A stretch of DNA of 26,370 nt from a virus: IMG/VR virus record IMGVR_UViG_3300017782_004119, positions 1 through 26,370 of that record. One strand, 5' to 3'. Numbering within the stretch: the stretch's first letter is position 1; each line of letters begins with the position of its first letter. The notes below the pieces were generated by a model, which saw nothing but the letters and a program-made list of their open reading frames with translations, did not search any database and was not told the origin of the DNA. The position numbers were made by a program, and so were the translations under genes. Shown here piece after piece: positions 1,151-26,071 of this stretch.

Positions 1151-1748
1151 TTATTTTCAACCTCATAGAGTGTTGGATATAGGAGCAAATGTAGGACAAT
1201 TTAGAACAAACGCTCAACAGTATTGGCCTCAAAGTTATATTTTTTCAATCGAAGCTTCTGAAGCTTGTGAAGAACATTTACAGAAGTTAACTGACGATTA
1301 TTTAATTTGCTTACTAGCTAAAGATGATTCTAGGTATGAATATTTTAGCAGGAAAAACGACCCTACTTGTACTGGTAATTCAATATATAAGGAACTGACT
1401 GAATTTTATTCTGATGATCAAGTAGAAATAATTAAAAAAGACGGAATAATGTTGGATGATTTATTTACTTCAGAATCTATATTTGATTTAATTAAAATAG
1501 ATACTCAAGGTTCGGAATTAGATGTAGTTGAAGGAGGTAAAAAAATATGTAGTAGAGCTAAAGGTTTACTTTTAGAAGTTTCATTTAATGAGTATAATGA
1601 AAAAGCTCCTCTTTATGAAGAAGTACTAAACTATATGGAAGGATTTAATTTTACTCCTACTATTGTTTTAGACATTCAAAAAAATCATGGAGCACATCAA
1701 CAGGATATATTATTTTTGAACAATGAATATAATCAATTAGATCAATAA
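1128..1748 (+). CDS. FkbM-family SAM-dependent methyltransferase
   Basis: A 206-residue class I methyltransferase. Motif I is VLDIGANVGQF (residues 15-25), the SAM-binding glycine loop. The acidic strand-2 residue follows in SIEASE (40-45). The FkbM hallmark IDTQGSELDVVEGG is at 124-137. FkbM proteins usually O-methylate hydroxyls of sugars or polyketides, and phage copies normally sit among glycosyltransferases, as here. The ATG at 1128 lies inside the end of the upstream gene (23-base overlap); it is the only ATG before motif I. The stop TAA overlaps the next ATG by one base. Probable role: capping or modifying a sugar made by this operon. The substrate is not deducible. Confidence 0.9.
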   Translation: MNLSLVNNYFQPHRVLDIGANVGQFRTNAQQYWPQSYIFSIEASEACEEHLQKLTDDYLICLLAKDDSRYEYFSRKNDPTCTGNSIYKELTEFYSDDQVEIIKKDGIMLDDLFTSESIFDLIKIDTQGSELDVVEGGKKICSRAKGLLLEVSFNEYNEKAPLYEEVLNYMEGFNFTPTIVLDIQKNHGAHQQDILFLNNEYNQLDQ

Positions 1749-2521
1749 TGAAAGAAAATTTACTTATAGGAGCTATTAGCGGAAACTACGGTGTAGAAGA
1801 TATAGAAACGTGGGTAAATACTTCTGAGTTTGGTTTTAGTAGAACCTTAATAGTCTTTAATGCTAAAGATAATAATAGTTTAATTCCTTATTTAGATTCT
1901 AAAAACATAAATTATATTCTTCCCAATCATGACTTTTGGGGTAACAGTAAAGACTTTTTTGAGCACCATACAGGTAAAATGAATTTAGAGAATAGCTTTG
2001 ATCTTATTCATAATATGAGATTTATGTATATTCATAGGTATTTAAAAGAATGCCCAGAGTATAAAAAAGTATTAGTTACAGATGTTAAAGATGTTAAGTT
2101 TAATTCAAATCCTTTCGATAAACTTCCTACTGATAAATTAGTAGCTACTGGGGAAGTAATAAAGTACAAAGAAGATGATTGGAATATGGAGCATTTAATT
2201 TATAATATAGGAATATTTGGATTTGATTTTAAGGAAGAAGAGGTACTTAATGTAGGAGTGTTTGGAGGATCGTCAGAACTAGTTAGAGATATAAGTAGAG
2301 ATATATTTTTACTTTCAGCTGGTAAACCTAAAGTAGCAGACCAAACCTCTTTTAATTATTTAGCTAGAACTTCTTATAAAGATAAATTTACATTTACATC
2401 AATAGAAGATAAATTAGCAGTTCATTTACAAGTTATAGTAAACGGTTCAGTAGAGTTTGATTATAATACTATACCGGATTACCCCATAGTACATCAATAT
2501 GATAGAATAAGAAATGTATAG
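1748..2521 (+). CDS. Divergent GT-A-like glycosyltransferase
   Basis: A 257-residue protein that I read as a GT-A-like transferase rather than a secure family member. The N-terminal strand GAISGNYG (8-15) and the central motif KVLVTDVKDVKFNSNPF (107-123) resemble the metal-binding site of nucleotide-diphospho-sugar transferases, where an aspartate pair in a V(T/L)DxxDV context is followed by a Pro-Phe. A later YPIVHQYDR at the C-terminus resembles the terminal His motif of such enzymes. Neighbours on both sides are glycosyltransferases or modifying enzymes. It overlaps the next gene by 8 bases. The alternative is a glycan-binding protein without activity; a structure prediction would separate these. 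Confidence 0.7.
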   Translation: MKENLLIGAISGNYGVEDIETWVNTSEFGFSRTLIVFNAKDNNSLIPYLDSKNINYILPNHDFWGNSKDFFEHHTGKMNLENSFDLIHNMRFMYIHRYLKECPEYKKVLVTDVKDVKFNSNPFDKLPTDKLVATGEVIKYKEDDWNMEHLIYNIGIFGFDFKEEEVLNVGVFGGSSELVRDISRDIFLLSAGKPKVADQTSFNYLARTSYKDKFTFTSIEDKLAVHLQVIVNGSVEFDYNTIPDYPIVHQYDRIRNV

Positions 2522-3224
2522 TATAATTATATCCTATAGAAACAGAGAGTCACATTTAGAGACACTTCTACCTAGGTTAGAAGAAGTATTTAAAGGCAAA
2601 GAATACGAAATTATTATAGCTGAACAAGATGATAATGATAAGTTTCAAAAAAATAGCTTATATAATTTAGCTGCTGCTAGAGCTAAAGGAGATATTTTTA
2701 TTTTCCATGACGTAGATTATTACCCAGCTGAAAATATTTCATACGATACAGATATCGATGTTCCATTTTATCCTGTTGGTAAGGTATTATTTTTAGATAA
2801 TAATAATCAACCTAGAAAAATAGAAGATATTCCTTCTGGTTACAGAAATTTCCATGTCACTGTAGGAGATCATTCAGGAGGAGTATTTGTTTTATCTAAA
2901 ACTTTATTTTTTAATACTAATGGTTTAAACCCATTTTTTAAAGGATGGGGTAAAGAAGATGATGCTACTAGAGATAGATTAAGATTTTTAGGATATAACT
3001 GGAGGCGTAATCATGATGCGTTATTTTATGCTCTATATCATGAGGATAGTAAACCTAATGATAATGACAGTGACTTTATCAACAATAGTAAGCTTTATAT
3101 GAATCTTACTTCAGATACAAAAGTAGGTTTGAATAACGTTAATGCTAAAGTAGAAGAGTTTGATCTACCTGATCATTCTAATGTAAGATGGTTAAAAATA
3201 AAAGATTTTGAATATAAAAATTAA
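2514..3224 (+). CDS. GT7-like (galactosyltransferase-type) glycosyltransferase
   Basis: A 236-residue protein with the clear layout of the beta-1,4-galactosyltransferase C-terminal domain. IISYRNRESHL (5-15) is the family's start, followed by FIFHDVDYYP with the D66-V-D68 metal motif. GGVFVLSKTLFFNTNGLNP (122-140) matches the GGVxxLxKxxFxxxNGFxN signature, and GWGKEDD (144-150) is the acceptor and catalytic loop. YHEDSK (175-180) supplies the third metal ligand. GT7 enzymes use UDP-Gal, UDP-GalNAc or UDP-GlcNAc; the donor here is not known. This version has no membrane anchor, so it works in the infected cell's cytoplasm. The start overlaps the previous gene by 8 bases. Confidence 0.88.
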   Translation: MYSIIISYRNRESHLETLLPRLEEVFKGKEYEIIIAEQDDNDKFQKNSLYNLAAARAKGDIFIFHDVDYYPAENISYDTDIDVPFYPVGKVLFLDNNNQPRKIEDIPSGYRNFHVTVGDHSGGVFVLSKTLFFNTNGLNPFFKGWGKEDDATRDRLRFLGYNWRRNHDALFYALYHEDSKPNDNDSDFINNSKLYMNLTSDTKVGLNNVNAKVEEFDLPDHSNVRWLKIKDFEYKN

Positions 3225-3597
3225 CATTTCTCCAGGAGAGTTATTAGATAAAATTTCTATTATAGAACTTAAACTCCTTAAAATAAAAGATAAAGCTAAA
3301 CTTAATAATATAATGATTGAGTTTGAAGCTTTAAATCCACAAGTAGTAGAGCTATTAGAAAAATTTAAAGAACCTCTTAAAAAAAAGTATTTACATCTAT
3401 CAGAGGTTAATGAAACGTTATGGGATATTGAAGATGCTATCAGAGTTAAAGAAAAGAATAAAGAGTTTGATAGTAAATTTATAGAGCTTGCAAGATCTGT
3501 TTATAGACAAAACGATAAGAGAAGTATCATCAAGAAGTTTATAAATGAAATGACTGACTCCAATTTAATAGAAGAAAAATCATATGAAGAATACTAA
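3208..3597 (+). CDS. DUF6165 family protein (TTG start)
   Basis: A 129-residue helical protein matching the DUF6165 pattern: an N-terminal INISPGELLDKISIIELKL (5-23), an internal LWDIEDAIR, an LARSVYRQNDKR helix and a final INEMT...IEEKSY. The family's function is not known; members sit in polysaccharide clusters of bacteria and phages. The frame has no ATG before residue 35, yet the SPGEL motif lies upstream of it. Translation therefore has to start at the TTG at 3208, inside the end of the glycosyltransferase gene (17-base overlap). The 3' end overlaps the next ATG by 14 bases. Its place between two transferases supports a supporting or scaffold role in glycan assembly (inference). Confidence 0.85.
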   Translation: MNIKINISPGELLDKISIIELKLLKIKDKAKLNNIMIEFEALNPQVVELLEKFKEPLKKKYLHLSEVNETLWDIEDAIRVKEKNKEFDSKFIELARSVYRQNDKRSIIKKFINEMTDSNLIEEKSYEEY

Positions 3598-4468
3598 AGT
3601 TTTAGTAATAACATATGGTTTCTTCGGAGATATAGCTTTCTCTTCTGCTTTAGCATCATTTTTAGCATCTGAGTATAGTCAAGTTGACTACTTGATAGGT
3701 TTTCCCCAAATGAGAAAACTTATAATGAACAATCCTTTCATTAAGAATGTATATGTTCCCAGGAGCCCTGGACCAGCTCCTACAACTAGTACTGAATTTC
3801 AACTAACTTATGATAAAGTAATACAATTAGGTCCTCTATCTTTTACTAAACCACCTGTAGTTCAATATAAACAACAAGCAGGTATAAAAGATACAAGTCC
3901 TGATTATAAATTATATACAGATAATAATTTAGATTCAGCAGTGCAGACTTTATTTACTGATTTACCAGAAGATAAAAAAGTTATTGCTGTAATGAATAAT
4001 TGGGAAGAAAAAACTTTTACTTTTACTGAAGAGCAATATAATTCCGGAATAGATGTTCCGAACTTAGGTTACGGAGGTGCTCATAGAGATACAGATAAAA
4101 TTATCTCGGTACTCTCAGATTATTTTACTATATTAACAGTAGGAGTAGAAGGAAGCAATCAGCAACAGACTGTTAATACTGATGATCACGATTCTAAATC
4201 TATTCTTTTTGAGACTTCAATTATGAAGTACTGTAATGCTTTCATAGGGGCTGAAGGAGGTTTATGTAATTTAGCTGCAGGTGTAGGAACTAAAACTATT
4301 ATAACTGGTGATTTTGTTCATCAGCTTTATGGATGGAATGGAGTCTTAAAAAAGATTGAAGAACCTAAATTAGGTCCTAAATATTATTTTAAGGATGAAG
4401 GTCACGTTACTCTTGATCCTTATTTAACAGATGATGAAGTAATAGAACAAATAAAGTTATTAGTATGA
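3584..4468 (+). CDS. GT9-like (heptosyltransferase-type, GT-B) glycosyltransferase
   Basis: A 294-residue protein resembling the ADP-heptose:LPS heptosyltransferase group. The N-terminal ITYGFFGDIAFSSALASFL (9-27) corresponds to the GxLGDxxxxxPxxxxL donor-domain start. The C-terminal FIGAEGGLCNLAAGVGTKTII (220-240) corresponds to the GT9 nucleotide-sugar motif, in which a Glu/Asp-Gly-Gly loop precedes an LAAxxGTxT helix. The protein is about 50 residues shorter than usual heptosyltransferases. It overlaps the previous gene by 14 bases and the next by 4 (ATGA at 4465). Likely role: transfer of a sugar to a growing glycan; acceptor unknown. Confidence 0.8.
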   Translation: MKNTKVLVITYGFFGDIAFSSALASFLASEYSQVDYLIGFPQMRKLIMNNPFIKNVYVPRSPGPAPTTSTEFQLTYDKVIQLGPLSFTKPPVVQYKQQAGIKDTSPDYKLYTDNNLDSAVQTLFTDLPEDKKVIAVMNNWEEKTFTFTEEQYNSGIDVPNLGYGGAHRDTDKIISVLSDYFTILTVGVEGSNQQQTVNTDDHDSKSILFETSIMKYCNAFIGAEGGLCNLAAGVGTKTIITGDFVHQLYGWNGVLKKIEEPKLGPKYYFKDEGHVTLDPYLTDDEVIEQIKLLV

Positions 4469-5157
4469 AAATAATTTATAGGATTTCTGACGCTGGTTAC
4501 AATAAAGTAAAGCCTGATTATATTACAAACGAAATTTGTCTAAAGAACTTTGTTGAGGTATTTGGTTGGGAAGATCTTCATATAATTGCTGATGGAATAT
4601 CAAAAGATACTGAAAAAATGATTTTAAAGTATGTTCCTCAAGCATGTATAGAGCATGTTAAGGTAGGACATGGAGCAGGTACATTTAATCTAGCGTTAGA
4701 TTTAGCTCTTATGTACGAAGATGAAGATATAATTTATTTTATTGAGAATGATTATCTTCATACCTCAGATGCTAAAAAAATATTAAAAGAAGGTTTCGAT
4801 ATCGGAGCCTCTTTCGTATCTTTATATGATCATCCTGATAAATACTTAGCTCCTGATAGAGGAGGTAATCCTTATTGTGATGGAGGAGCAGAAGATACTA
4901 GAGTTTATTTAACTGATAACTCTCATTGGAAAATAACTAACAGTACAACTATGACGTTTGCTGCTAAAGTAAAAACTTTAAAAGAGAATGAAAAGATATT
5001 AAGAGACTTTACTAATGAAACTCACCCTCATGATTTTCATATGTTTCTTAAATTAAGAGAAAATAATCAACTATTAATAACCCCAATACCGGGCAGGTCG
5101 ACTCATGGAGAAACCGCTTGGTTGTCACCTTTAATTAAATGGAAAAATTATGCATAA
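4465..5157 (+). CDS. Putative glycosyltransferase, GT-A-like, 230 aa
   Basis: Probably a sugar transferase, though without a secure family. The N-terminal IYRISDAGYNKVKPDYI (4-20) precedes a Rossmann-like half. A GHGAGTFNLALDLAL stretch (69-83) resembles the helix before the DxD site of GT-A enzymes. The metal site would be E94-N95-D96 in YFIENDYLH. The C-terminal half holds HPHD (187-190) and a late STHGETAW (212-219), both plausible ligand or acceptor sites. It is a stand-alone soluble domain. The ATGA overlap with the upstream gene and the 8-base overlap with the epimerase gene place it firmly in the glycan operon. Confidence 0.72.
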   Translation: MKIIYRISDAGYNKVKPDYITNEICLKNFVEVFGWEDLHIIADGISKDTEKMILKYVPQACIEHVKVGHGAGTFNLALDLALMYEDEDIIYFIENDYLHTSDAKKILKEGFDIGASFVSLYDHPDKYLAPDRGGNPYCDGGAEDTRVYLTDNSHWKITNSTTMTFAAKVKTLKENEKILRDFTNETHPHDFHMFLKLRENNQLLITPIPGRSTHGETAWLSPLIKWKNYA

Positions 5158-6229
5158 CAAGAAAATTTTAATAACCGGAGTAGCTGGTTTATTAGGAAGC
5201 CGATTAGCAGAATATATTATCGAGAAGAAACCCGGTAATACTATTATTGGAGTAGATGATCTTTCAGGAGGATACGAAAGTAATATACCCGAACAAGTAA
5301 AGTTTTATAAAGCTAATACGTTTGATGATAAGATAAAAGATATCTTTGAGTTAGAGCAGCCTGATATAGTCTATCACTTTGCAGCATATGCCGCCGAAGG
5401 TCTATCTCCTTTCGTTCGTACTTTTAACTATGATAATAATTTAAAAAGTACTGCTTCTATAGTAAATGAGTGTATCAAACATGATGTAGAGAGATTAGTA
5501 TTTACTTCCACTATGGCAGTTTACGGTCATGGGTGGGAAGGTAAGAGACCTTTTGAAGAGACTCACCCTCCTCAACCAATAGATCCATATGGGATTGCAA
5601 AGTATGCTTGTGAGATGGATATTCAATGTGCCGGAGTACAACACGGATTAGACTGGTGTATACTCAGACCTCATAATGTTTATGGTCGTAATCAAAATAT
5701 ATGGGATAAGTATAGAAACGTTCTAGGTATTTGGATGTATCAATATATGAATGATAAACCTTTGACTATCTTTGGTGATGGTTCTCAAAAAAGAGCTTGG
5801 AGTAGTGTAGACGATTGTTTAGAGCCTATATGGAAAGCAGCTTTTATTCCTAAAGCATCTAAAGAAATTATCAATCTTGGGGGTACAGAGTTTACTACCA
5901 TTAACGAAGCTTGTAGAATAGTAAGAGAAGTAATAGGAGGAGGAGATATAGAAAAAATGCCTGCTATAGCTTTCGAAGAAGCTAGACACGAAGTTAAAAA
6001 TGCTTATCCTACTTGGAGAAAGTCTGAGGTAATATTAGGATTTGAACATTTAACTAAACTTGAAGACGGACTTAAAGAGATGTGGGCATGGGCACAAACC
6101 CAACCTAACAGAGAAAGATTCGTTTGGAAAAATTATGAATTAGAAAAAGGAATATATAGCTATTGGAAAAATGATAAGTCTAATAATACCAACTTACCGA
6201 AATCCGAAGTATCTGGATATTTGTCTTAA
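5150..6229 (+). CDS. NAD-dependent epimerase/dehydratase (extended SDR)
   Basis: A 359-residue extended short-chain dehydrogenase of the UDP-glucose 4-epimerase/GDP-mannose dehydratase type. The NAD-binding GxxGxxG is GVAGLLG (10-16), followed by VDDLSGG. The catalytic set is S120/T121 in FTSTMAVYG and the YxxxK pair Y147/K151 in PYGIAKYAC. RPHNVYGRNQ (substrate binding) and the FGDGSQKRAWSSVDD strand complete the family layout. It interconverts or dehydrates a nucleotide sugar in the cytoplasm and likely supplies donor sugar to the flanking transferases. The product cannot be deduced. The C-terminus, roughly the last 40 residues, extends beyond the fold and hosts the overlap with the next gene (59 bases). 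Confidence 0.9.
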   Translation: MHNKKILITGVAGLLGSRLAEYIIEKKPGNTIIGVDDLSGGYESNIPEQVKFYKANTFDDKIKDIFELEQPDIVYHFAAYAAEGLSPFVRTFNYDNNLKSTASIVNECIKHDVERLVFTSTMAVYGHGWEGKRPFEETHPPQPIDPYGIAKYACEMDIQCAGVQHGLDWCILRPHNVYGRNQNIWDKYRNVLGIWMYQYMNDKPLTIFGDGSQKRAWSSVDDCLEPIWKAAFIPKASKEIINLGGTEFTTINEACRIVREVIGGGDIEKMPAIAFEEARHEVKNAYPTWRKSEVILGFEHLTKLEDGLKEMWAWAQTQPNRERFVWKNYELEKGIYSYWKNDKSNNTNLPKSEVSGYLS

Positions 6230-6962
6230 GTCTGCTGTAGAAGGTAGGGTTAACGAAGAGAGCGAAATTATAGTCGTTGTAGATGGCTTTGTTGATGAAA
6301 GCAAAGAAGTTCTAGAGGAGTATAAGAACAAAGTTCAAGTACTGCCTTTGGAAGAGAATCAAGGAATGCAAATGGCTCTTAATTTAGGAGTTATGAATGC
6401 TACTAATGAACGTATTATGATTATTAATGATGATAACGTTCTATGTTCCGGATGGGATTCAATATGGGCTGATATGTCTGAAGGAGAAGTTATTACTATA
6501 AATCAAATAGAACCTACAGGCCCAGGTATATTTAATTTTCCTGTTAAAGACTTTGGTAGAACTCCTGATGAGTTTGACTATAATAGTTTTATGGAATATG
6601 AAACTACAATAAGCTCTAATGAAGTATCAGAGGATGGAGGCATATTTCCTTTCGTCTTATTTAAAAAGAACTACATGATGGTAGGAGGTTTTGATACTTT
6701 ATATAAGTCTCCTTTTATATGCGATTGGGATTTCTTTTTAAAATTAGAACTAGCTGGGTGTAAGTTTACTAGAACTCATAGTCAACATTTTTATCATTTT
6801 GGTTCTACTGCAACTAAAAACGGTAAGGAAGGAGATGCATTTAAAGCTACAGAAGCCCCTGCTGCAGAAACTTATATTTATAAATGGGGAACACCCCCAG
6901 GTATATATGAAAATAATTCTCATATACCAAAAGGTAAATTAATTAAAGGAATACAATTTTAA
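6171..6962 (+). CDS. Glycosyltransferase family 2
   Basis: A 263-residue GT2 enzyme. The start MISLIIPTYRNPKYLDICL is the classical family N-terminus, so the ATG at 6171 is correct although it lies 59 bases inside the epimerase gene. VVVDGFVDESKEVL (35-48) is the uridine-binding aspartate region and ENQGMQMALNLGV (62-74) the next helix. The metal site is N86-D87-D88-N89 (a DxD variant). The WD motif of the acceptor site is seen as ICDWDFFLKLELAG. A terminal HFYHFGSTAT stretch may carry the last metal-binding His. It is soluble and acts with the sugar-nucleotide enzymes on both sides. Donor and acceptor are unknown. Confidence 0.9.
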   Translation: MISLIIPTYRNPKYLDICLKSAVEGRVNEESEIIVVVDGFVDESKEVLEEYKNKVQVLPLEENQGMQMALNLGVMNATNERIMIINDDNVLCSGWDSIWADMSEGEVITINQIEPTGPGIFNFPVKDFGRTPDEFDYNSFMEYETTISSNEVSEDGGIFPFVLFKKNYMMVGGFDTLYKSPFICDWDFFLKLELAGCKFTRTHSQHFYHFGSTATKNGKEGDAFKATEAPAAETYIYKWGTPPGIYENNSHIPKGKLIKGIQF

Positions 6963-6963
6963 T

Positions 6964-7140
6964 ATGGAAAAGAAATACCTAATTGAATTTACTCACGCTG
7001 ACGGAACTACAGAAGAAGTAGAATTAGTAACCGATAGATTAAAATGGTCCATTGATCAGTGGAGTAGAAATAGAGCTATAGTAAGTCATAAAGTAATAGA
7101 AGAAGGTAAGTCAAATGCTAAAAATATGTTGCTAGGATGA
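6964..7140 (+). CDS. Small unknown protein, 58 aa
   Basis: A short frame of 58 codons from ATG 6964 to TGA 7138-7140 fills the gap between two sugar genes. Its stop overlaps the next ATG as ATGA, the same coupling used elsewhere in the operon. The product reads as a compact alpha/beta mini-domain: a KKYLIEFTHADG strand, EEVELVTDRLKWSIDQWSRNR helix-like segment and SHKVIEEG strand. This resembles small proteins that I associate with T4-like marine phages, but no function is known to me. There is no membrane segment and no cysteine. Confidence 0.75.
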   Translation: MEKKYLIEFTHADGTTEEVELVTDRLKWSIDQWSRNRAIVSHKVIEEGKSNAKNMLLG

Positions 7141-7970
7141 TAGGAATTGTAGGACAAGGTTTTGTAGGTAATGCTGTTTATGAAAAATTTAAAAGCTTTT
7201 ATGAAGTATTAACTTATGACTTAGATAAAAACAAATGTAATTCTACTTTAGAAAATTTAGTATTTAAAAGCGAATTTATTTTTCTCTGCCTTCCTACTCC
7301 TATGAGTAAAAATGGTTCTTGTGATATAAGTATAATTAGTAAGTCATTAGATAGTATTGACTTAATAACAGATAATTTAGAAACTAAAAGAACTATAATA
7401 ATAAAATCTACTATTCCTCCTTCTACTACTGAAAACCTTAATAAGAAATATGGCAGTTTAAACATAATATTTAATCCAGAGTTTCTTACAGAAAGAAATG
7501 CTGTAAAAGATTTTGAAAATCAAACTAGAATTATTTTAGGAGGTCCAAGACCAGTTACAACAGAGGTTAAAACTATTTTTAGCAAAGTATTTCCAAAAGC
7601 TCATATTATTAAGACTGATTCTTCTTATGCTGAAATGATAAAATATGTGACTAATACTTTTTTAGCTACTAAGATATCATTTGCTAATGAAATATATGAG
7701 CTTTGTAATAAAATGAATATAGATTATGATAAGGTAGTAGAGTATGCAACTTTAGACCATAGATTAGGAAAATCACATTGGGGAGTCCCAGGTCATGATG
7801 GAGACTTGGGGTTTGGTGGCCATTGCTTTCCTAAGGATTTAGCAGCATTGCTCTACTTATCTTATCAATATAATACTGTCAATGGAGTACTAAAAGCTAC
7901 TCAAGAGACAAACAATAAAGTTAGAAGCGATAGAGATTGGGAAAGAATGAAAGGAAGAGCTGTCTCATAG
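7137..7970 (+). CDS. ugd: Nucleotide-sugar 6-dehydrogenase, short form (Ugd-like)
   Basis: A 277-residue member of the UDP-glucose/GDP-mannose dehydrogenase family, which oxidises a nucleotide sugar to its uronate with two NAD+. Seen: NAD site GQGFVG (6-11), FNPEFLTE with the catalytic Glu region (112-119), the EMIKYVTNTFLATKISFANE helix with K169 and N173, and the catalytic cysteine loop GFGGHCFPKD (225-234, C230). The family is usually near 400 residues or longer; the C-terminal UDP-binding domain is absent. The protein ends soon after the central dimerisation helix. Such short phage versions may be active with altered substrate binding or may need a partner. It is the last gene of the glycan operon, starting at an ATGA overlap. 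The symbol denotes family likeness only. Confidence 0.88.
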   Translation: MIGIVGQGFVGNAVYEKFKSFYEVLTYDLDKNKCNSTLENLVFKSEFIFLCLPTPMSKNGSCDISIISKSLDSIDLITDNLETKRTIIIKSTIPPSTTENLNKKYGSLNIIFNPEFLTERNAVKDFENQTRIILGGPRPVTTEVKTIFSKVFPKAHIIKTDSSYAEMIKYVTNTFLATKISFANEIYELCNKMNIDYDKVVEYATLDHRLGKSHWGVPGHDGDLGFGGHCFPKDLAALLYLSYQYNTVNGVLKATQETNNKVRSDRDWERMKGRAVS

Positions 7971-12247: not shown

Positions 12248-13075
12248 ATGAAAGATGTTATGTTAAGTTTCGGTAAAGGTTTAGACGGATACCTTACCAA
12301 AGATCAGATTAGAAACTCCTCTCCATTAGTATTTGCTGATGCTCCTACTAACCCTGATGTTAGTAATAAGTATCTTTTTGTTAATACTGAAACAATCATT
12401 GATGACTTAGAAAAGTTAGGATGGTTACCAGTTCAAGCTGCTCAAAGAAAGAGTAGAAAAGAAGGAGGTACTATATTTTCAAAGCATATGGTAGCTTTCC
12501 AGAACCCAAATATTAAAATTACTTCTGCTGATGGTGATGATGCTTATCCTAGAATACTTCTTACTAACTCTCATGATGGTATGCAATCGTTTAAATTCTC
12601 AGTAGGTATATTTAGACTAGTATGTAGTAATGGTTTGGTAGTTGCTGATGAGCAATTTAGTGACTTTAAGATTAAGCACAAAGGTTATACGTTTGGTGAG
12701 CTTAGAAATGTAGTTAAGCAAGCAGTAGAGGATCTGCCTAATAAAGTTCAGGTAATGAATGATATGAAGAATAGAATCTTAACTGAAGATGAAAAAAGAA
12801 AGATGGCTTTAGATGCTATGCTTATTAGAGCTGGAGTAAAAGAGCTTCAATATGATGAAGAGACTATTACAGATATATTAGACCCAAAAAGAGATGCGGA
12901 TAAAGGAGATGATTTATGGAGAGTGTTTAACGTTATTCAAGAGAAGATCACTCAAGGAGATTTTCACGCTGCTCTTACTGGAGCTAAAGTACGTAAGGTA
13001 CGTAAGATTAAATCCTTTGAAAAGGATATGAAAGTAAATAAAGAATTGTTTAAATTAGCTTCGGCATTAGTATAA
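12248..13075 (+). CDS. DUF932-type phage protein
   Basis: A 275-residue protein resembling the DUF932 group of phage and plasmid proteins. The recognisable core is LLTNSHDGMQSFKFSVGIFRLVCSNGLVV (104-132), with an N-terminal FVNTETIIDDLEKLGWLPVQAAQRKSR region and a helical C-terminal half. The biochemical role is not settled; members are associated with mobile elements. It lies behind a strong promoter and an AAAGGTTAT leader, which suggests early or abundant expression (inference). It is followed by two very short genes not separated by any recognisable terminator. Confidence 0.82.
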   Translation: MKDVMLSFGKGLDGYLTKDQIRNSSPLVFADAPTNPDVSNKYLFVNTETIIDDLEKLGWLPVQAAQRKSRKEGGTIFSKHMVAFQNPNIKITSADGDDAYPRILLTNSHDGMQSFKFSVGIFRLVCSNGLVVADEQFSDFKIKHKGYTFGELRNVVKQAVEDLPNKVQVMNDMKNRILTEDEKRKMALDAMLIRAGVKELQYDEETITDILDPKRDADKGDDLWRVFNVIQEKITQGDFHAALTGAKVRKVRKIKSFEKDMKVNKELFKLASALV

Positions 13076-14353: not shown

Positions 14354-16198
14354 ATGAAAGGAACATTATTTTCAGCAGATTTCATATTTGATTCATCAGA
14401 TAATGCTAGGTTGTTAGAGATAAATACTGATACAGGATTAACTCGTTCTGGAGCAGAATTTTTAGATTTTACTGATTTTGGTACTCTTTTATCTGATAGT
14501 GCATTAGATACTTTACATTTAATTTATAAGCCATACCATCTTAACATGGTTGAAAAAATATTAGCATATGTTTCTGCTAACGTTTCTAATATAACTACTG
14601 TTACTCATCAGGAAGAAACTGATTGCTCAGTATATTTAGAAGCTGTTGAAGATGCATCTAATAAATTTATTTTAAGATTGGCATATGATGAAGGAGCAGT
14701 TTTAGATTCAACTTATGCTAAAAATGACTGTGAATTATATAACCTATTTAATGAATATGGTAGTATAGGAGATGTAGTTCCTTTTTACTTATCTAGTTCC
14801 GCTATTGGAATAAATGTTAATAATTTATCACAGTCTTTAAATAGCGAAGTATTTCCTGACTTTGTTAAAAAACATGTAAACAGTCAAAGCAGTACAAATA
14901 GTACTTTACAGTTTTTAAAATTAGGATTACCAGATACAGGTTCTGACTATAGATACAATCTTTTTCTTGAAGATTTAGCATCTGAAGATGAAGTTTTAAT
15001 TACTAATTATATTCCTCAAGTATCCGGTTCGTATAATACTTCAGTTAGGAGCATACAGATTACTTATGGCGATAATTTAGACTTATGTTTTTTAGGTGAA
15101 TTTGAATCTTCAGCTCTACTCGATGTTCCAACATCACTTGAGACTACAGCTATGACAGGTAGTAGTATTGCATTATCAGTAGACAATAAACATAAGTATG
15201 AATTTGCTACTAACTACCCAAGAGGAGTCGCTGGAATTCATATACTATCGAGTATAATTAGTTCATCAGGTGAGGTTGTAAAAGTTGACCTAGCTAATAC
15301 AGGTTCTGATTATACCTATAAATCTTATTTTATTTCAGGTTCTCCTGATTCAGATTATTTTAGAGACCTTAATGATTATTACCACTCAGGTTCAACCTTT
15401 CCAAGTGGTTCTCACATTACATCATCTCATATAGTAACTAAAACACTCGATGCAAATAAAGAAAGGTATGTTCATTCTTTTACTTTAGATTCAGGAGATC
15501 AATTTAGTGTCGGAGGAGGCCAAATTTTACCTGTACTTGATTCTACTGGTACCGTTATTACATACAGATATGCTAATAGTATACACGATGGTGATTATTT
15601 ATTTGATGAAAATAATACTTCCTCTATTATAGTCTCTTCTTCTCTTATTATTGGTGATACTGCTAATGAATATAATTTAATTGATCCTGACTTTGAAGAT
15701 AATGATACCTTTTTAATTTATGGTGTATCTAGAAATTTATTAGTTCACAACTACGGAAACTTTACAAGATTAGAATATTATTACTCTTGCTTTGTAGCAG
15801 GTACTGAAATTACTCTTCCAAATGGTGATAATGTACCTATTGAAGAAATAAATGAAGGTGATGAAATATTGACATATAACCATGATAACGATGGTGAAGA
15901 AACTGGTAAAGTAGGATTTATTGAAACAAGAGTAGTAGATAAAGTAGTAAAGATAACTACTGATGGTAAGTATGTTAAAGAAATTATATGTACTCCTGAA
16001 CATCCTTTTTATGCTAATGGTAAATATATCCAAGCACAATATTTAGAGGTTATGGATCTATTGCAGACAAATTACGGTGAGGAAGTATTTATAAGCAATA
16101 TAGAAATTGTAGATGAAACTCATAAAGTATATAATTTAAGAGACGTATCTGATAATCATAACTTTTATGCTAACAATATATTAGTTCATAATAAATAA
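14354..16198 (+). CDS. Fibre-like structural protein with C-terminal Hint domain
   Basis: A 614-residue protein. Residues 1-478 are Ser/Thr/Asn/Gly-rich and strand-rich, with repeated NTGSDYxY and SGSY-type segments, as in phage tail or neck fibres. Residues 479-614 form a complete Hint (hedgehog/intein) domain. It has C479 in CFVAGTEITL, block B TPEHPF (residues 547-552), and the terminal block NHNFYANNILVHN followed by a single Lys and the stop. This is the bacterial-intein-like layout found on cyanophage fibre-like proteins. With only one residue after the terminal Asn there is no C-extein, so the likely reaction is cleavage before C479, releasing the fibre part or passing it to a nucleophile. 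Residues 7-28 resemble an ATP-grasp metal motif. It lies behind a TATTTATA element. Confidence 0.88.
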   Translation: MKGTLFSADFIFDSSDNARLLEINTDTGLTRSGAEFLDFTDFGTLLSDSALDTLHLIYKPYHLNMVEKILAYVSANVSNITTVTHQEETDCSVYLEAVEDASNKFILRLAYDEGAVLDSTYAKNDCELYNLFNEYGSIGDVVPFYLSSSAIGINVNNLSQSLNSEVFPDFVKKHVNSQSSTNSTLQFLKLGLPDTGSDYRYNLFLEDLASEDEVLITNYIPQVSGSYNTSVRSIQITYGDNLDLCFLGEFESSALLDVPTSLETTAMTGSSIALSVDNKHKYEFATNYPRGVAGIHILSSIISSSGEVVKVDLANTGSDYTYKSYFISGSPDSDYFRDLNDYYHSGSTFPSGSHITSSHIVTKTLDANKERYVHSFTLDSGDQFSVGGGQILPVLDSTGTVITYRYANSIHDGDYLFDENNTSSIIVSSSLIIGDTANEYNLIDPDFEDNDTFLIYGVSRNLLVHNYGNFTRLEYYYSCFVAGTEITLPNGDNVPIEEINEGDEILTYNHDNDGEETGKVGFIETRVVDKVVKITTDGKYVKEIICTPEHPFYANGKYIQAQYLEVMDLLQTNYGEEVFISNIEIVDETHKVYNLRDVSDNHNFYANNILVHNK

Positions 16199-16201
16199 AC
16201 T

Positions 16202-16336
16202 ATGGGAATTTATAAACAAGTATCAACCAAACAACTAGATCAGAGATCAGTCAAGGCAATAAGTGAAACTAAAAAAACTAAAGTAAGAAATGTAGTTTCT
16301 AATTTTATTACTCATTTAAAATCTTCACTAGAATAG
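16202..16336 (+). CDS. Small basic protein, 44 aa
   Basis: ATG 16202, three bases after the fibre-like gene, to TAG 16334-16336. The 44 residues (MGIYKQVSTKQLDQRSVKAI at the start, ending FITHLKSSLE) are basic and helical, with no family match I recognise. It fills the gap before the oxygenase gene (4 bases further on) and is codon-biased like its neighbours. It might be a fibre chaperone or adaptor because of its position, but nothing in the sequence proves this. Confidence 0.5.
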   Translation: MGIYKQVSTKQLDQRSVKAISETKKTKVRNVVSNFITHLKSSLE

Positions 16337-16340
16337 TTTA

Positions 16341-16841
16341 ATGTTAAAGGTTATAGATAACTTCTTGAGTAAAGAAGAATGTAATGATATTATAGCTTCT
16401 AACAATTCTAATCTTAAAGAAGCATCTCATAATAATATCTATATTCGTAAATCTCTATCTAAGTTAATTGACCTTCCAGAAATTGAACCTAAACTTTTAG
16501 TTGAAGCAATTAAGTTAAACTCTAATATTATATTTGATAATAAGTTTGAATTCATAGAATACGGTATTAATGATCACTTTGCTTGGCATGATGATATAAT
16601 AAGGGGAAAAGAAACTAGAGAGGTACTAACAGGTGTAATTTTTTTAAATAAAGATTTTAAAGGAGGAGAACTTCTAATTAAGAAAAGAGGAAACACCACA
16701 GAAATAAAAAGTAAAACAGGCTCTTTATGTTTGTTTTCTTCTAAATTTTTGCATAAAGTTACAAAAGTTTCGGAAGGTAAAAGATATAGCCTTTGCTGTT
16801 GGTTTTACCATAAACAGTCATTATCGAAAAATTTGATATGA
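16341..16841 (+). CDS. 2-oxoglutarate/Fe(II) oxygenase, prolyl 4-hydroxylase-like
   Basis: A 166-residue double-stranded beta-helix oxygenase. The iron triad is H83-x-D85 (FAWHDDI) and H138 (KFLHKV), with R148 (EGKRYSL) ten residues later to hold 2-oxoglutarate. GVIFLNKDFKGGELLI (98-113) is the classical central strand pair of this family. The start MLKVIDNFLSKEECNDII is also typical. Such enzymes hydroxylate protein side chains (Pro, Lys, Asn) or small molecules in the cytoplasm. This is the first of three oxygenase-like genes placed around a sulfotransferase and directly after the fibre-like gene. It overlaps the next gene by 4 bases (ATGA). Confidence 0.9.
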   Translation: MLKVIDNFLSKEECNDIIASNNSNLKEASHNNIYIRKSLSKLIDLPEIEPKLLVEAIKLNSNIIFDNKFEFIEYGINDHFAWHDDIIRGKETREVLTGVIFLNKDFKGGELLIKKRGNTTEIKSKTGSLCLFSSKFLHKVTKVSEGKRYSLCCWFYHKQSLSKNLI

Positions 16842-17362
16842 AAAACGTTTTAATTATAGCTCATCCTAGATCAGGAAGTACTAATCTTATGAAAAGCATA
16901 GCCATAGCTAATAATTTTAGAGCATGTTTTGAACCTTTTGGTGGTAGAAAAAGACGAGTGTTTATATCTAATTCATGTACTAAAGTTATAATATCAAGAC
17001 AAGATATTAGTACCTATATAGATTTATCTAAAAAATTTGATAAAACTATTCTATTAGCTAGGAGAGATATATTAGCTGCTTCAGAGTCATTTGTAAAGTT
17101 AATGCTATCAAATGAAAAAAACCCTCACAATAAATGGAGTAGTTTAACTGAAGAAGAGAAACGATTTATTCCTAAAGGTATTAAACAAATTACCAATCAA
17201 CAATTAGAATTAAATAAATTATCCAGTATATTAAATATTGAGATAGATTATTACGAAGATATTTATTCTTCAAAGAGTGTAAACGATAAATCTATTAAAC
17301 TAGATTTAAAGTTCCTTGATCCAAGATTTAAATGTAAAGTAGAAAAACTTGAAATTATCTAA
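16838..17362 (+). CDS. Sulfotransferase-like protein
   Basis: A 174-residue protein with the two PAPS-binding signatures of sulfotransferases. HPRSGSTNLMKSI (9-21) is the 5'-phosphosulfate loop, with R11, S12, G13 and T15. ILLARRDILAASESFVKL (71-88) is the 3'-phosphate loop, with R75/R76 and a following Ser. Sulfotransferases move sulfate from PAPS to hydroxyl or amino groups of sugars, proteins or lipids. The protein is shorter than typical family members (about 250 residues), so part of the acceptor domain is missing or reduced. It lies between two hydroxylase-like genes, which suggests sulfation of a newly hydroxylated residue or sugar (inference). It is coupled to both neighbours by overlaps of 4 and 14 bases. 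Confidence 0.83.
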   Translation: MKNVLIIAHPRSGSTNLMKSIAIANNFRACFEPFGGRKRRVFISNSCTKVIISRQDISTYIDLSKKFDKTILLARRDILAASESFVKLMLSNEKNPHNKWSSLTEEEKRFIPKGIKQITNQQLELNKLSSILNIEIDYYEDIYSSKSVNDKSIKLDLKFLDPRFKCKVEKLEII

Positions 17363-17942
17363 AAATTATAGTATACAGTATTTAGGGGAATTAGATCATA
17401 CATATCTTCTAGAACAATATTCTAAACTAGAGGAAAATGATTGGAATTATGATATTACCAGGCAACATACTTTTAAAAGTGTTCATGGTTATACTAAATG
17501 GATTCCTATAATTTACGAAGATGTAAGCAGTCCTTTCAGAGCGATAGGAATAGACTCAGTTAAGTATGTTGAACAGTTTTTGACTAATGTATTAGGTAGT
17601 GTCAGTATCAGAAGAGCAATATATACGAAACTTGAGCCTTTTAAGGAAATACCTATTCACAAAGACTCAGGTGTTTTTTTAGAACAGCATACTAGAGTAC
17701 ATATTCCAATTATTTCTAATCCAAACACTATGTTTGGAGCTTTTCATCCTGATGAAGTTGATAATAATAATAATATATCGAAAGAAGAATGGATTAAATG
17801 GATTCATATGGAACCAGGAAAAGCTTATGCTTTAAATAATTGTGAAGCTCCTCATGCAGTCTCTAATAAATCTGATCAAGCTAGGGTACATCTTATATGC
17901 GATTTTACTTTTTTAAATAAAGGTAAACGTTCGGTAATCTGA
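17349..17942 (+). CDS. Aspartyl/asparaginyl beta-hydroxylase-like oxygenase (TTG start)
   Basis: A 197-residue oxygenase of the Asp/Asn beta-hydroxylase group. The metal site is H104-x-D106 in IPIHKDSG. The segment up to R116-V-H118 matches the family, and the distal His is H169 in EAPHAVSNKSD, followed by R179 in the ARVHLICDF strand. The frame has no ATG until well inside the domain, so the TTG at 17349 is the start, 14 bases inside the sulfotransferase gene. Family members hydroxylate Asp/Asn side chains or small molecules using 2-oxoglutarate and O2. Together with its neighbours it suggests a local protein or glycan modification set. Confidence 0.85.
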   Translation: MKLSKNYSIQYLGELDHTYLLEQYSKLEENDWNYDITRQHTFKSVHGYTKWIPIIYEDVSSPFRAIGIDSVKYVEQFLTNVLGSVSIRRAIYTKLEPFKEIPIHKDSGVFLEQHTRVHIPIISNPNTMFGAFHPDEVDNNNNISKEEWIKWIHMEPGKAYALNNCEAPHAVSNKSDQARVHLICDFTFLNKGKRSVI

Positions 17943-17953
17943 AATATTTTTCG

Positions 17954-17961
17954 TATATTAT
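17954..17961 (+). promoter_or_regulatory. Weak TATATTAT element
   Basis: TATATTAT at 17954-17961 lies 16 bases before ATG 17977 and resembles the -7 box of the TTG-N20 class. At the -33 position the bases read TCG (17931-17933), not TTG. It is a weak match kept for completeness. Confidence 0.3.
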
Positions 17962-17976
17962 AATAAACACAAAATT

Positions 17977-18165
17977 ATGAATGAGTTATATTATATTGCC
18001 GAATCAAAAATGAATTCAAGAATCTCTGCGACTATCATGGATGGTTACCCAATAAGAGTAGATGATATAGTTTACGAAAGACTATGGAAGCGACCTGCTT
18101 ATCGAGGTGAGAAACAACGATTAGTTAATACTGATCAAACAGAAAGAATTATCTTATTTAACTAA
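17977..18165 (+). CDS. Unknown small protein, 62 aa
   Basis: A small soluble protein with strand-rich N-terminus (ELYYIAESKMNSRISATIMDGYPIRVDD) and a basic middle (YERLWKRPAYRGEKQR). No recognised family. It ends with a one-base overlap to the next ATG, so it is probably read together with the downstream oxygenase-like gene. A weak promoter-like element precedes it. It may be a partner or regulator of the neighbouring enzyme, but no evidence exists beyond position. Confidence 0.65.
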   Translation: MNELYYIAESKMNSRISATIMDGYPIRVDDIVYERLWKRPAYRGEKQRLVNTDQTERIILFN

Positions 18166-18794
18166 TGTTTGTCCCTTTAAACCAGATTTTTTACTCTGAA
18201 CATCAGTTATCTTTAGACCACGATAAAATTTTATCTGAAGTAATGATGGCTAAAATAAAGGATGATGTTCCTGGTGACGAAATTAATTATTCTAGTTATC
18301 CTATCAGCCATACATTTTTTAAAGATAGCAATATCTATCCGGAAACTGCTGATAAAGTATTTAATGCTATTCTAGATCAGTTAAGTATTATATTTGATGC
18401 AGATGATTTATGGGTTATAGATGAAAATGAGATATGGGGACATATAGTTGAACCTGGTCAACAAACTATAGTTCATAACCATGTATGTGGAGCTGTAAAA
18501 GAAATAAGTCTATCTTTTGCTTACTACCCTAATCATCCATCTGATTCAGGAGAAATAGTATTTCAAACTCAGATTAATACTAACGTTTATGAAGCTTCAG
18601 TACAACCTAGAAAAGGATTAGCTATAATATTTGATGCTTCTATGTTTCATTACACTCCTATCAATAATAGCAAATACACTAGAGTATCTGTTTCAGGAAA
18701 CTTACTTGCAACTGAAAAGATGATAAAGTTATTAGATGAAGATGTAAATTGCAGTAGTCCTTATTGGAAATATTCGGGAAAAACTAACGTTTAA
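18165..18794 (+). CDS. Putative 2OG-Fe(II) oxygenase, TIGR02466-like
   Basis: A 209-residue cupin/beta-helix protein resembling the TIGR02466 group of putative oxygenases. The first metal pair is H104-x-H106 in TIVHNHVCG (His in place of the usual Asp). The central strands are EISLSFAYYP and GEIVFQTQ, the distal His is H162 in ASMFHYTPINN, and R173 follows in SKYTRVSVSGN. Most members are annotated only as putative hydroxylases. It is the last of the modification block that follows the fibre-like gene. The HxH in place of HxD could mean changed metal use or a non-oxygenase cupin. The promoter for the next gene starts three bases after its stop. Confidence 0.8.
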   Translation: MFVPLNQIFYSEHQLSLDHDKILSEVMMAKIKDDVPGDEINYSSYPISHTFFKDSNIYPETADKVFNAILDQLSIIFDADDLWVIDENEIWGHIVEPGQQTIVHNHVCGAVKEISLSFAYYPNHPSDSGEIVFQTQINTNVYEASVQPRKGLAIIFDASMFHYTPINNSKYTRVSVSGNLLATEKMIKLLDEDVNCSSPYWKYSGKTNV

Positions 18795-23060: not shown

Positions 23061-23289
23061 AAGTCACCCTAAAGCAGCTTTTAAAAAAGCTAATCTAGTT
23101 ATAAGTTCTTGCACTGAACAATCTCATTTAAAAGCGGCAAGGAGATATATTAATTTATTTTTTAAGATGTACTGTACTAATTATAGTATTAAGTCGAGAT
23201 TTAGAGTATATAAACCCTCTACTATGATATCAGAATTTTACGATACTCTTCTCCATAATTTAAGTTTAAAAGAAAGACAATTTGACTAA
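23041..23289 (+). CDS. Unknown basic helical protein, 82 aa
   Basis: Small basic and helical protein (SHPKAAFKKANLVISSCTEQ, HLKAARRYINLFFKMYCTNY, LHNLSLKERQFD) without a recognised family. The start lies inside the acidic gene before it (20-base overlap) and its end overlaps the gcvP start by 8 bases, so gcvP is probably translated by coupling to this gene. A role in recruiting or regulating GcvP is possible but unsupported by any motif. Confidence 0.65.
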   Translation: MDYLSIKSHPKAAFKKANLVISSCTEQSHLKAARRYINLFFKMYCTNYSIKSRFRVYKPSTMISEFYDTLLHNLSLKERQFD

Positions 23290-26071
23290 CAATTTTTTAA
23301 GTCGCCATTTAGGACCTAGACAAAAAGAAATACATAAAATGTTAAGCTTCATCGGTATAGAATCGATAGAAGAATTACTTACTGAAACTATCCCAGAAGA
23401 AATAAGATTAAAAGATAAGTTAGAATCTAACACTCCTTTATCTGAATATCAATTTCTTAAGCACATTCAAACATTATCAAATAAAAATAAACTGTACGAT
23501 ACTTATATAGGTTTAGGTTATCACCCTACTATTACTCCTCCAGTCATACAGAGAAATATATTAGAGAACCCTGGATGGTATACTGCTTATACTCCCTACC
23601 AAGCTGAGATAGCACAAGGAAGATTAGAAGCTTTATTTAATTTTCAGACTATGGTATCGGATTTAACTGGTATGGAACTTGCTAATGCTTCTTTGTTAGA
23701 TGAAAGTACTGCAGCAGCAGAAGCCATGTCAATGATATTTTCTTTAAGGACCAGAGAACAAAAGAAAGCAAATGCTAATAAGTTGTTTGTATCTAATCGT
23801 ATACTTCCTCAAACATTAGAGGTATTAAATACAAGAGCTACTCCTCTAGGTATTGAGTTAGTAGTAGGAAGTGAATCTAATATAGTTTATAATAGTAGTT
23901 ACTTTGGAGCTATATTTCAATACCCTGGCAAGAATGGTAAGATAATAAACCTTTCATCTGCAGTAAGAAGAGCTAAATCGTTTAATATTAAGACTGTAGT
24001 ATCAGCAGATCTTCTTTCTCTCACCTTACTTGAAGCTCCTGGTACTTATGGAGTAGATGCAGTAGTAGGAACTACTCAGAGATTTGGAATACCATTAGGT
24101 TACGGTGGTCCTCATGCAGCTTTCTTTGCTACTAAAGTAGAGTATAAGAGAAGTATACCTGGCAGAATAATAGGACAAACAATAGACTTAGATGGTAACC
24201 CAGCTTTAAGAATGGCACTCCAAACAAGAGAACAGCATATAAAAAGAGATAGAGCTACTTCTAATATATGTACTGCTCAAGTCTTGTTAGCTGTTATGGC
24301 GGGTATGTATGGAGCATATCATGGTCCTGATGGTTTGAAAAGTATAGCCGAAAAAATACATAACGATACTAAAGAATTAGAAAGTAGGCTCTTTGAGTTA
24401 GGCTTTATAAATAAAAACGAATATTACTTTGATACTCTTAAGATTCAATGCAACTCTAAAAATATTGAGATAGCATCTGAAAGTTTAAATATTAACTTAC
24501 TTCACATAGATAATAAACATGTCGGAATATCTCTTAATGAAACTTCAGATAGAGATTCAATAGATAGATTAGTAAAGCTATTTGAAATAGAAACTATTAA
24601 TAATAATGTTTCGTTAAAAAGAACATTACCAGATAGAATACCTTTTAATTCTAAAAGAGAAACTCCTTTTATGACTCATAAAGTATTCAACTCTTATCAT
24701 TCAGAGACATCATTGATGAGATATATTAAAAGTCTAGAAAGAAAAGATTTAGCTCTTAATCATTCTATGATAAGTTTAGGTTCATGTACAATGAAGTTAA
24801 ACGCTGCCGCAGAGATGTTACCTTTAAGCTGGCCTCAATGGAATAGTATTCATCCATTTGCTCCAGATGGTCAAGTAGAAGGTTATAGAGAAATGCTTAA
24901 TGAGTTAGAAATAGAATTAAATAAAGTTACTGGCTTTCATTCTACTTCGTTACAACCTAACTCAGGAGCTCAAGGAGAGTATTCCGGACTAATGGTTATA
25001 AGAGCTTATCATAAAGACAATAAAGATAGTCATCGCAACATATGCTTAATACCCTCCTCTGCACATGGAACCAATCCAGCATCAGCAGTTATGGCTGGTA
25101 TGAAAGTAGTAGTAGTAAAAACAGATGAGTTAGGTAACATAGATATTAAAGATTTATCGGATAAAGCTGATAAGCATAAAGATAATTTAGCTGCTCTAAT
25201 GATTACTTATCCTTCTACTCATGGAGTATTTGAATCTAATATTAAAACTATAACTGATAAGATACATCAATGCGGAGGTCAAGTTTATATGGATGGAGCC
25301 AATATGAATGCTCAAGTAGGTTTAACTAGTCCTGCTTTAATAGGAGCAGATGTATGTCACTTGAACCTTCATAAGACTTTCGCTATACCTCATGGAGGAG
25401 GAGGACCTGGAGTAGGACCTATATGCGTAGCAGAGCATTTATCAAAGTATCTACCAGACTTAAAAGTATCAGCAGCTCCTTATGGTTCAGCTCTAGCTTG
25501 TTTAATATCATATGGTTATATTAAGATGCTAGGAGGAGATGGATTAACTAAAGCTACAGAGATAGCAATATTAAATGCTAACTATATTAAAAAGAGATTA
25601 GAAGGAAGTTATGATATTTTATATACAGGAGTTAAAGGAAGATCAGCTCACGAGTTAATTATAGACTGTAGACCTTTTAGAGAAAGTAAAATAGAAGTAG
25701 TTGATATAGCAAAGCGATTGATGGATTATGGCTTTCATGCTCCAACAGTATCATTTCCGGTAGCAGGTACTATGATGATAGAACCAACAGAGAGTGAGAA
25801 CCTAGAAGAGATAGATAGATTCTGCGATGCTATGATTAGTATAAGAGGAGAGATAAATAAAGGTAATATAGAACTTCTTAAGAATGCTCCTCATACTCAA
25901 GCAATGGTTACTTCAGATGAATGGACTCACCCTTATACAAGACAACAAGCAGCCTTTCCTTTAGACTTTGTAAGCAGTAATAAACTATGGCCTTCGGTAA
26001 GAAGAGTAGATGAAGCTTACGGAGATAGAAACCTTATTTGTAGCTGCACCCCTATAGAAGCTTATAAATAG
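23282..26071 (+). CDS. gcvP: Glycine decarboxylase (glycine cleavage P-protein), TTG start
   Basis: Full-length glycine dehydrogenase (decarboxylating), 929 residues against about 950 in bacteria. It decarboxylates glycine with PLP and passes the aminomethyl group to lipoylated H protein. The N-terminus holds SRHLGPRQKEIHKML, so the TTG at 23282 is preferred over the ATG at codon 19. Seen in order: GLGYHP (about 78), TPYQAEIAQGRLEALFNFQT (about 105-125), RFGIPLGYGGPHAAFF in the first half, SLGSCTMKLNAA (about 500), SAHGTNPASAVMAG (about 592-605), and the PLP lysine K698 in HLNLHKTFAIPHGGGGPG. The glycine-rich loop and APYGSA are intact, so activity is expected. Neither H, T nor L protein is encoded here, so the host must supply them. 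Base use is as AT-rich as neighbours. Confidence 0.96.
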   Translation: MTNNFLSRHLGPRQKEIHKMLSFIGIESIEELLTETIPEEIRLKDKLESNTPLSEYQFLKHIQTLSNKNKLYDTYIGLGYHPTITPPVIQRNILENPGWYTAYTPYQAEIAQGRLEALFNFQTMVSDLTGMELANASLLDESTAAAEAMSMIFSLRTREQKKANANKLFVSNRILPQTLEVLNTRATPLGIELVVGSESNIVYNSSYFGAIFQYPGKNGKIINLSSAVRRAKSFNIKTVVSADLLSLTLLEAPGTYGVDAVVGTTQRFGIPLGYGGPHAAFFATKVEYKRSIPGRIIGQTIDLDGNPALRMALQTREQHIKRDRATSNICTAQVLLAVMAGMYGAYHGPDGLKSIAEKIHNDTKELESRLFELGFINKNEYYFDTLKIQCNSKNIEIASESLNINLLHIDNKHVGISLNETSDRDSIDRLVKLFEIETINNNVSLKRTLPDRIPFNSKRETPFMTHKVFNSYHSETSLMRYIKSLERKDLALNHSMISLGSCTMKLNAAAEMLPLSWPQWNSIHPFAPDGQVEGYREMLNELEIELNKVTGFHSTSLQPNSGAQGEYSGLMVIRAYHKDNKDSHRNICLIPSSAHGTNPASAVMAGMKVVVVKTDELGNIDIKDLSDKADKHKDNLAALMITYPSTHGVFESNIKTITDKIHQCGGQVYMDGANMNAQVGLTSPALIGADVCHLNLHKTFAIPHGGGGPGVGPICVAEHLSKYLPDLKVSAAPYGSALACLISYGYIKMLGGDGLTKATEIAILNANYIKKRLEGSYDILYTGVKGRSAHELIIDCRPFRESKIEVVDIAKRLMDYGFHAPTVSFPVAGTMMIEPTESENLEEIDRFCDAMISIRGEINKGNIELLKNAPHTQAMVTSDEWTHPYTRQQAAFPLDFVSSNKLWPSVRRVDEAYGDRNLICSCTPIEAYK

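Follow-up and report, generated by a model that had tools for sequence, protein, structure and literature searches.

In this study, we investigated a phage gene cassette in a stretch of 26,370 bases (IMG/VR record IMGVR_UViG_3300017782_004119, positions 1-26,370; hereafter the window), with the analysis directed at the region 14354-18794. It was observed that three enzymes of this cassette, two 2-oxoglutarate (2OG)-Fe(II) oxygenases and a sulfotransferase-fold protein, end in a common C-terminal tail, and that this tail occurs in phages encoding one particular ATP-grasp-like and Hint domain protein, referred to here as the carrier, and does not rise above background in the examined phages that lack this protein. 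From the anatomy of the carrier, the tag and their co-occurrence, all of which were observed, we infer a phage-encoded system resembling the biosynthesis of ribosomally synthesized and post-translationally modified peptides (RiPPs), in which the tagged enzymes would dock on the carrier and modify a Hint-flanked peptide, which the Hint domain would then release; we give this reading a probability of about 45%. The broader proposition, that widespread aquatic phages possess a combinatorial line of this type, with enzymes of many families addressed by their tails to one ATP-grasp/Hint carrier that excises its own modified hypervariable peptide, is put forward with slightly more reserve. Our data suggest a phage assembly line for modified peptides that has seemingly not been described so far, and whatever the mechanism, at least 17 unrelated enzyme families with one C-terminal signature at the protein level, tied to a single carrier, call for an explanation.

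Features of the region (coordinates in the window, strand, description):
14354-16198, + strand: carrier (Hint gene), 614 amino acids (aa)
14354-15214, + strand: carrier residues 1-287, predicted ATP-grasp-like domain (GspS/YgiC fold; Foldseek, hhalign, invariant residues)
15221-15751, + strand: carrier residues about 288-466, first Hint (Hint1), N-terminal Cys lost, end LLVHN (hhalign against Hint2)
15752-15787, + strand: 12-residue spacer YGNFTRLEYYYS between the HN of Hint1 and Cys479 of Hint2; proposed modified peptide
15788-16198, + strand: carrier residues 479-614, second Hint (Hint2), with C479, T547/H550 and H612-N613, end VHNK (PT-HINT, intein_Nterm, invariant residues)
16202-16336, + strand: small protein, 44 aa, partner of the carrier (directly downstream of it in relatives)
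16341-16841, + strand: oxygenase 1, 2OG-Fe(II), prolyl-hydroxylase/PKHD type (PF13640, 1.7e-15)
16824-16838, + strand: C-terminal tail SKNLI of oxygenase 1
16838-17362, + strand: sulfotransferase-fold protein, 174 aa, P-loop PRSGST (fold match)
17345-17359, + strand: C-terminal tail KLEII of the sulfotransferase-fold protein
17349-17942, + strand: oxygenase 2, 2OG-Fe(II), Asp/Asn beta-hydroxylase type (PF05118, 3.5e-7)
17925-17939, + strand: C-terminal tail KRSVI of oxygenase 2
17977-18165, + strand: 62-aa conserved core gene closing the cassette, no tail (91.9% identity in L003-L006)
18165-18794, + strand: oxygenase 3, PF13759/TIGR02466-like (PF13759, 9.7e-8), outside the cassette, no tail

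All five genes of an earlier sequence-only reading of this DNA, among them the open reading frames (ORFs) at 14354-16198, 16341-16841, 17349-17942 and 18165-18794, were recovered at their coordinates, and its overlaps of 4 and 14 bases fall exactly at 16838-16841 and 17349-17362. That reading had interpreted the genes as a modification system that hydroxylates and then sulfates a fibre or a host glycan. The modification system is partly supported by conserved co-occurrence of the genes and by further enzyme families suited to protein or peptide modification, whereas the fibre identity of the Hint gene and the membership of the third oxygenase are given up below. The 44-aa ORF, the degenerate first Hint and the common tail had not featured in it.

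The common C-terminal tail and its distribution

The tail was recognized when each cassette family was aligned separately and unrelated proteins proved to end alike, with a consensus of roughly K-[S/T/N]-[L/I]-I-COOH. In the 23 non-redundant loci with a carrier, [ILV]I is the ending of 104 of 409 genes; the rate in the interior of the same proteins is 1.7%, and the 26 Hint-only loci used as controls have 8 such genes of 332. Lys occupies position -4 in 51% of the 154 tagged genes close to the carrier, position -3 is mainly Ser, Asn, Thr or Lys, and position -2 is Leu or Ile. The codons of the tail vary synonymously at every position, all three stops are used, and 47 of 126 non-overlapping genes are tagged too, so the tail is a protein-level signal. 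A DNA-level origin, with the shared ends produced by start-stop overlaps (ATATGA), promoters or low-GC composition, could draw on the excess of ATA at the last Ile (68 of 104, against about 41% of Ile codons), but it is contradicted by these same counts and by the untagged core genes of the same genomes, and we regard it as extremely improbable; the start-stop overlap and the promoter as causes of the tail were rejected on the variety of codons and stops and on the tagged genes that do not overlap. By single-linkage BLAST clustering, the tagged genes fall into 17 families having at least two tagged members each, plus 7 singletons, and about 20 core families have no or one tagged member. In a relative of 245 kb, occurrences of the canonical tail cluster immediately behind the carrier. 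In record G013 (with G004 and G029 it comprises L058-L083), the canonical tail was seen concentrated in the cassette.

The presence of the tail follows that of the carrier. Homologues of the sulfotransferase are tagged or nearly so in carrier-encoding records, including one about 56 kb from the carrier (G010), while those in records without a carrier (166, 52, 18.6 and 15.4 kb long) bear no tag and finish where the domain does; two short carrier-less records (L168 and L170) hold a homologue with an unrelated ending, and six short tagged records in which no carrier is visible (L169, L175, L178, L183, L184 and L189) may be fragments. In whole-locus carrier-less controls, tagged genes numbered 1 of 28, 0 of 20, 0 of 17 and 0 of 23, with 0 of 59 in Flavobacterium phage vB_FspM_immuto (hereafter immuto) and 0 of 35 in cyanophage S-SSM5. 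A radical-SAM family (L285-L363) with more than 500 IMG/VR relatives carries the tail in each of the 79 best loci that were checked (74 strict and 5 near forms); 27 of the 30 records tested encode a carrier, and these genes mostly adjoin a distant form of it. As the 79 loci are related sequences, the independent evidence lies in the spread of the tail across families. The tail might instead be a degron, a C-motif for ClpX through which a host or phage protease times the turnover of the enzymes, since it resembles the RRKKAI of MuA (PMC8138137) in having basic residues before a hydrophobic end. However, it tracks the carrier and not the type of host, being absent from the carrier-less Flavobacterium phage, and carrier-less phages hold untagged homologues of the same enzyme, which makes a degron quite improbable.

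Anatomy of the carrier and its Hint-flanked peptide

The structure of the carrier was predicted from a 22-sequence alignment (mean pLDDT 82.8), with low confidence at residues 469-476 of the spacer. Foldseek matched the N-terminal part of the model to Escherichia coli YjfC (1.1e-5) and YgiC (6.4e-5), as well as to glutathione synthetases, and the C-terminal part to bacterial intein-like (BIL) domains (6.3e-9), the best structural match being a BIL2 domain. When a profile of 49 N-terminal domain sequences was compared by hhalign with the glutathionylspermidine (GSP) synthase family, the result was E 4.8e-5 and probability 68, the best of 20 column-shuffled control profiles reaching E 0.0037; diverse phage GSP synthases made up the other side of this comparison, as a genome scan with YgiC gave only close enterobacterial copies. 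In this alignment, D9, E22 and N24 of the carrier pair with D102, E115 and N117 of YgiC, and D9/E22/N24/R108/K173/R232 are invariant among the 49 sequences. The D/E/N positions are magnesium ligands in GspS. The Pfam model GSP_synth (PF03738) did not match the carrier at E<=10 in 19 records, and direct membership of that family was rejected on this negative. The N-terminal domain is thus predicted to be ATP-grasp-like with the GspS/YgiC fold, as a remote match, and any ligase activity is putative; this N-terminal domain of the carrier was not found in cultured phages or GTDB genomes.

These relationships allow for a carrier that is itself an active ATP-grasp ligase, joining the tagged C-terminal carboxylate to an amine (of a polyamine, the small protein or a virion lysine) with participation of the Hint thioester, so that the tail would be a substrate and not an address. 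The metal-ligand residues are invariant, and the nearest fold relatives, YgiC and YjfC, are ligases that join peptides to spermidine according to their RefSeq names and to Pederick 2023 (cited in PMC12568646). On the other hand, the tails vary at every position, enzymes of very many families would have to be ligation substrates, and PF03738 finds no match, and we therefore hold conjugation to be unlikely.

Behind the ATP-grasp-like domain stand two Hint domains, which hhalign relates to each other over 132 columns (probability 92.7, E 4.3e-7). Hint1 is degenerate, having lost its N-terminal Cys and kept the final HN. Hint2, the C-terminal Hint domain that the sequence-only reading had correctly placed in this gene, matches PT-HINT (3.1e-14), intein_Nterm (3.7e-8) and, by profile, solved relatives (3e-21), and its N-terminal Cys, TxxH and His-Asn end are present and invariant. 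The 12-residue spacer separates the HN of Hint1 from Cys479 of this intact domain. Seven carriers (L106, L110, L117, L134, L142, L154 and L133) were seen without the final VHNK and with other ends, e.g. FKRQAIFELL or LKRQAVFQ, so that some members of the carrier family have something else in place of the C-terminal Hint. No match of the carrier to structural-protein, tail or fibre families was found, and its conserved neighbours in relatives are metabolic-type and not tail genes, as judged by inspection of sequence starts; with the ATP-grasp fold, these observations led us to reject the fibre identity.

Distant carriers, found beside the radical-SAM genes, have a single Hint ending in HN, followed by a peptide of 25-55 residues with about 20% Cys, and HN immediately precedes this Cys-rich peptide in all 26 distinct sequences. 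Their leaders share 58% mean identity and their C-terminal peptides 24% (13% without the shared Cys), and pairs with leaders 84-88% identical have peptides 24-62% identical. Such a conserved leader with a hypervariable Cys-rich peptide is the pattern of a RiPP precursor. One carrier (L029), in which an insert rich in Cys separates two Hints, links the distant form to that of the window, where the inter-Hint spacer is variable among the seven lineages of the clade.

Cassette enzymes and their exchange between relatives

Loci that combine the carrier, the small gene and modification enzymes number about 100 in IMG/VR, with 56 distinct carriers, and affirm the co-occurrence that the sequence-only reading had proposed as a check. 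The 44-aa gene follows the carrier immediately in every locus of the first set and with nearly all 56 distinct carriers; the distant clade does not have it. The two complete metal triads predicted for the oxygenases hold in the alignments: H83/D85/H138 of oxygenase 1, whose match in PDB is a PKHD-type hydroxylase (6.5e-12), is invariant across ten sequences, and H104/D106/H169 of oxygenase 2 across three, the relative L007 scoring 2.5e-9. The protein between them had been described as having a 3'-phosphoadenosine 5'-phosphosulfate (PAPS) site, and the PAPS-site-like PRSGST loop is indeed present; no convincing Pfam or NCBIfam match was obtained and the profile match to NodH was only 0.016, and the best Foldseek matches of its model are Stf0 sulfotransferase (3.5e-4) and next tyrosylprotein sulfotransferase, so that a sulfotransferase fold with a PAPS-site-like P-loop is predicted. 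The third oxygenase is TIGR02466-like as first suggested (1e-5, under the cut-off of that model); it was rejected as a member of the set because it is located past the 62-aa core gene and lacks the tail, and it occurs in few relatives only.

Between the window and L003-L006, the flanking genes are 89-98% identical, compared with 57% for the carrier and 43% for oxygenase 1, and another gene stands in place of the sulfotransferase and oxygenase 2. Since the flanks are conserved while the cassette genes diverge or are replaced, the segment from the small gene to the 62-aa gene is a hot spot of exchange, with oxygenase 1, the sulfotransferase and oxygenase 2 forming an exchangeable cassette. A second contig (L002, IMGVR_UViG_3300017783_001037) is nearly identical to the window across the cassette, and three carriers (L011, L122 and L148) have no cassette at all. 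Tagged families in relatives include SET domain proteins, radical SAM enzymes, 2OG oxygenases, GDSL/GSCFA proteins, methyltransferases and, by inspection, glycosyltransferase (GT)-like proteins, and the SET, radical SAM, GT-like and GDSL/GSCFA families fit protein or peptide modification.

Proposed mechanism, known systems and neighbouring genes

In the RiPP-like system proposed here, the tail would serve as an address bringing each enzyme to the carrier. Its likeliest reader would be the ATP-grasp-like domain, because the fold relatives of this domain bind the C-terminal carboxylate of a peptide; as the tail persists in the distant clade, which lacks both the small protein and Hint2, the ATP-grasp-like domain and Hint1 are the common element, and the 44-aa protein is disfavoured as reader. 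The recruited enzymes would then modify the Hint-flanked peptide, in the window possibly by hydroxylation of Asn or other residues of the spacer and by sulfation of its Tyr, and self-processing of the Hint, through cyclisation of Asn at HN and in the window also thioester chemistry at Cys479, would release or transfer the product, which might act on the host or be displayed on the virion.

Several observations weigh against this interpretation. In many multi-Hint carriers the spacer measures 0-2 residues (AP, RA), which does not leave room for a core peptide. In the clade of the window, a spacer Tyr is present in the six lineages with a sulfotransferase and not in the single lineage without one (PFGAGRGG), which is suggestive of a connection, but with seven lineages only it would arise by chance about once in 7. 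The carrier-less controls are few, and most records are fragments. At the family level, the excess of tagging is modest (15 of 81 families near the carrier against 9 of 113 far from it, p 0.045, majority rule, all families), in part since carrier genomes have tagged genes at other places too; two of these genomes (G004 and G029) have GT-like, sulfotransferase-like and GDSL-like genes with the tail at distances of tens of kb from the carrier, so that the enzymes may also act on glycans. Finally, a conserved leader with a variable tip also fits a receptor-binding protein or adhesin tip. This would suit decoration of the virion, a generalized form of the view taken in the sequence-only reading, with the Hint protein remaining part of the particle and its variable tip receiving hydroxyl, sulfate or sugar groups that alter adsorption or help to avoid host recognition; the swapping of the cassette between near-identical genomes would suit it as well. 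Yet the carrier has no structural-protein match, possesses an ATP-grasp-like domain and keeps neighbours of metabolic appearance, and decoration alone does not explain the common tail; such a role is thus improbable in our view, though less so than conjugation.

With reference to known systems, the proposed line shares with RiPP biosynthesis (graspetides, sactipeptides, proteusins and others) the conserved leader, the hypervariable and here Cys-rich C-terminal peptide, and the adjoining tailoring enzymes such as radical SAM enzymes, oxygenases and methyltransferases. It differs in that the leader is a large ATP-grasp-like and Hint protein with putative release by the built-in Hint, that the enzymes and not the leader bear the common recognition tail, and that it is phage-encoded. 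The ATP-grasp fold and the D/E/N metal-ligand positions are shared with glutathionylspermidine synthetase and the YgiC/YjfC ligases, which act on peptide carboxylates, whereas the carrier has very low sequence similarity to them, a Hint fusion and no amidase. Like BIL domains, Hint2 keeps Cys1, TxxH and the terminal His-Asn, but the carrier has tandem domains, the first without Cys1, and most carriers have one or few residues past the last HN. The oxygenases of T4-like cyanophages (PMC3037559) belong to the same 2OG-Fe(II) superfamily in large aquatic phages, but those checked in cyanophage S-SSM5 lack the tail. In the open-access literature, we found no description of a system combining such Hint proteins, oxygenases, sulfotransferases and C-terminal tags, or of a phage RiPP system of this kind. 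If the reading is true, it would introduce a plug-in logic for phage modified peptides that is new for RiPPs, with any enzyme recruited by a five-residue address. Hundreds of phage hydroxylases, sulfotransferases, radical-SAM and SET proteins that now lack an explanation would thereby gain a function, and the tail could serve peptide engineering as a portable recruitment tag.

Elsewhere in the window, a DUF932 protein at 12248-13075 is 93-96% identical in near relatives and 68% identical in immuto, the closest cultured relative found through this gene, for which reason a Bacteroidota host is likely; the protein is a useful marker for this phage group. A run at 518-7970 contains apparent glycosyltransferase, methyltransferase and nucleotide-sugar enzyme genes, none of these sugar-enzyme genes bearing the canonical cassette tail, and its position with respect to DUF932 matches that of the sugar-gene block in immuto. 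At 23282-26071, with a listed TTG start, lies a 929-aa protein resembling by sequence glycine dehydrogenase (the P-protein of glycine cleavage), an enzyme reported in two cyanophages (PMC3037559).

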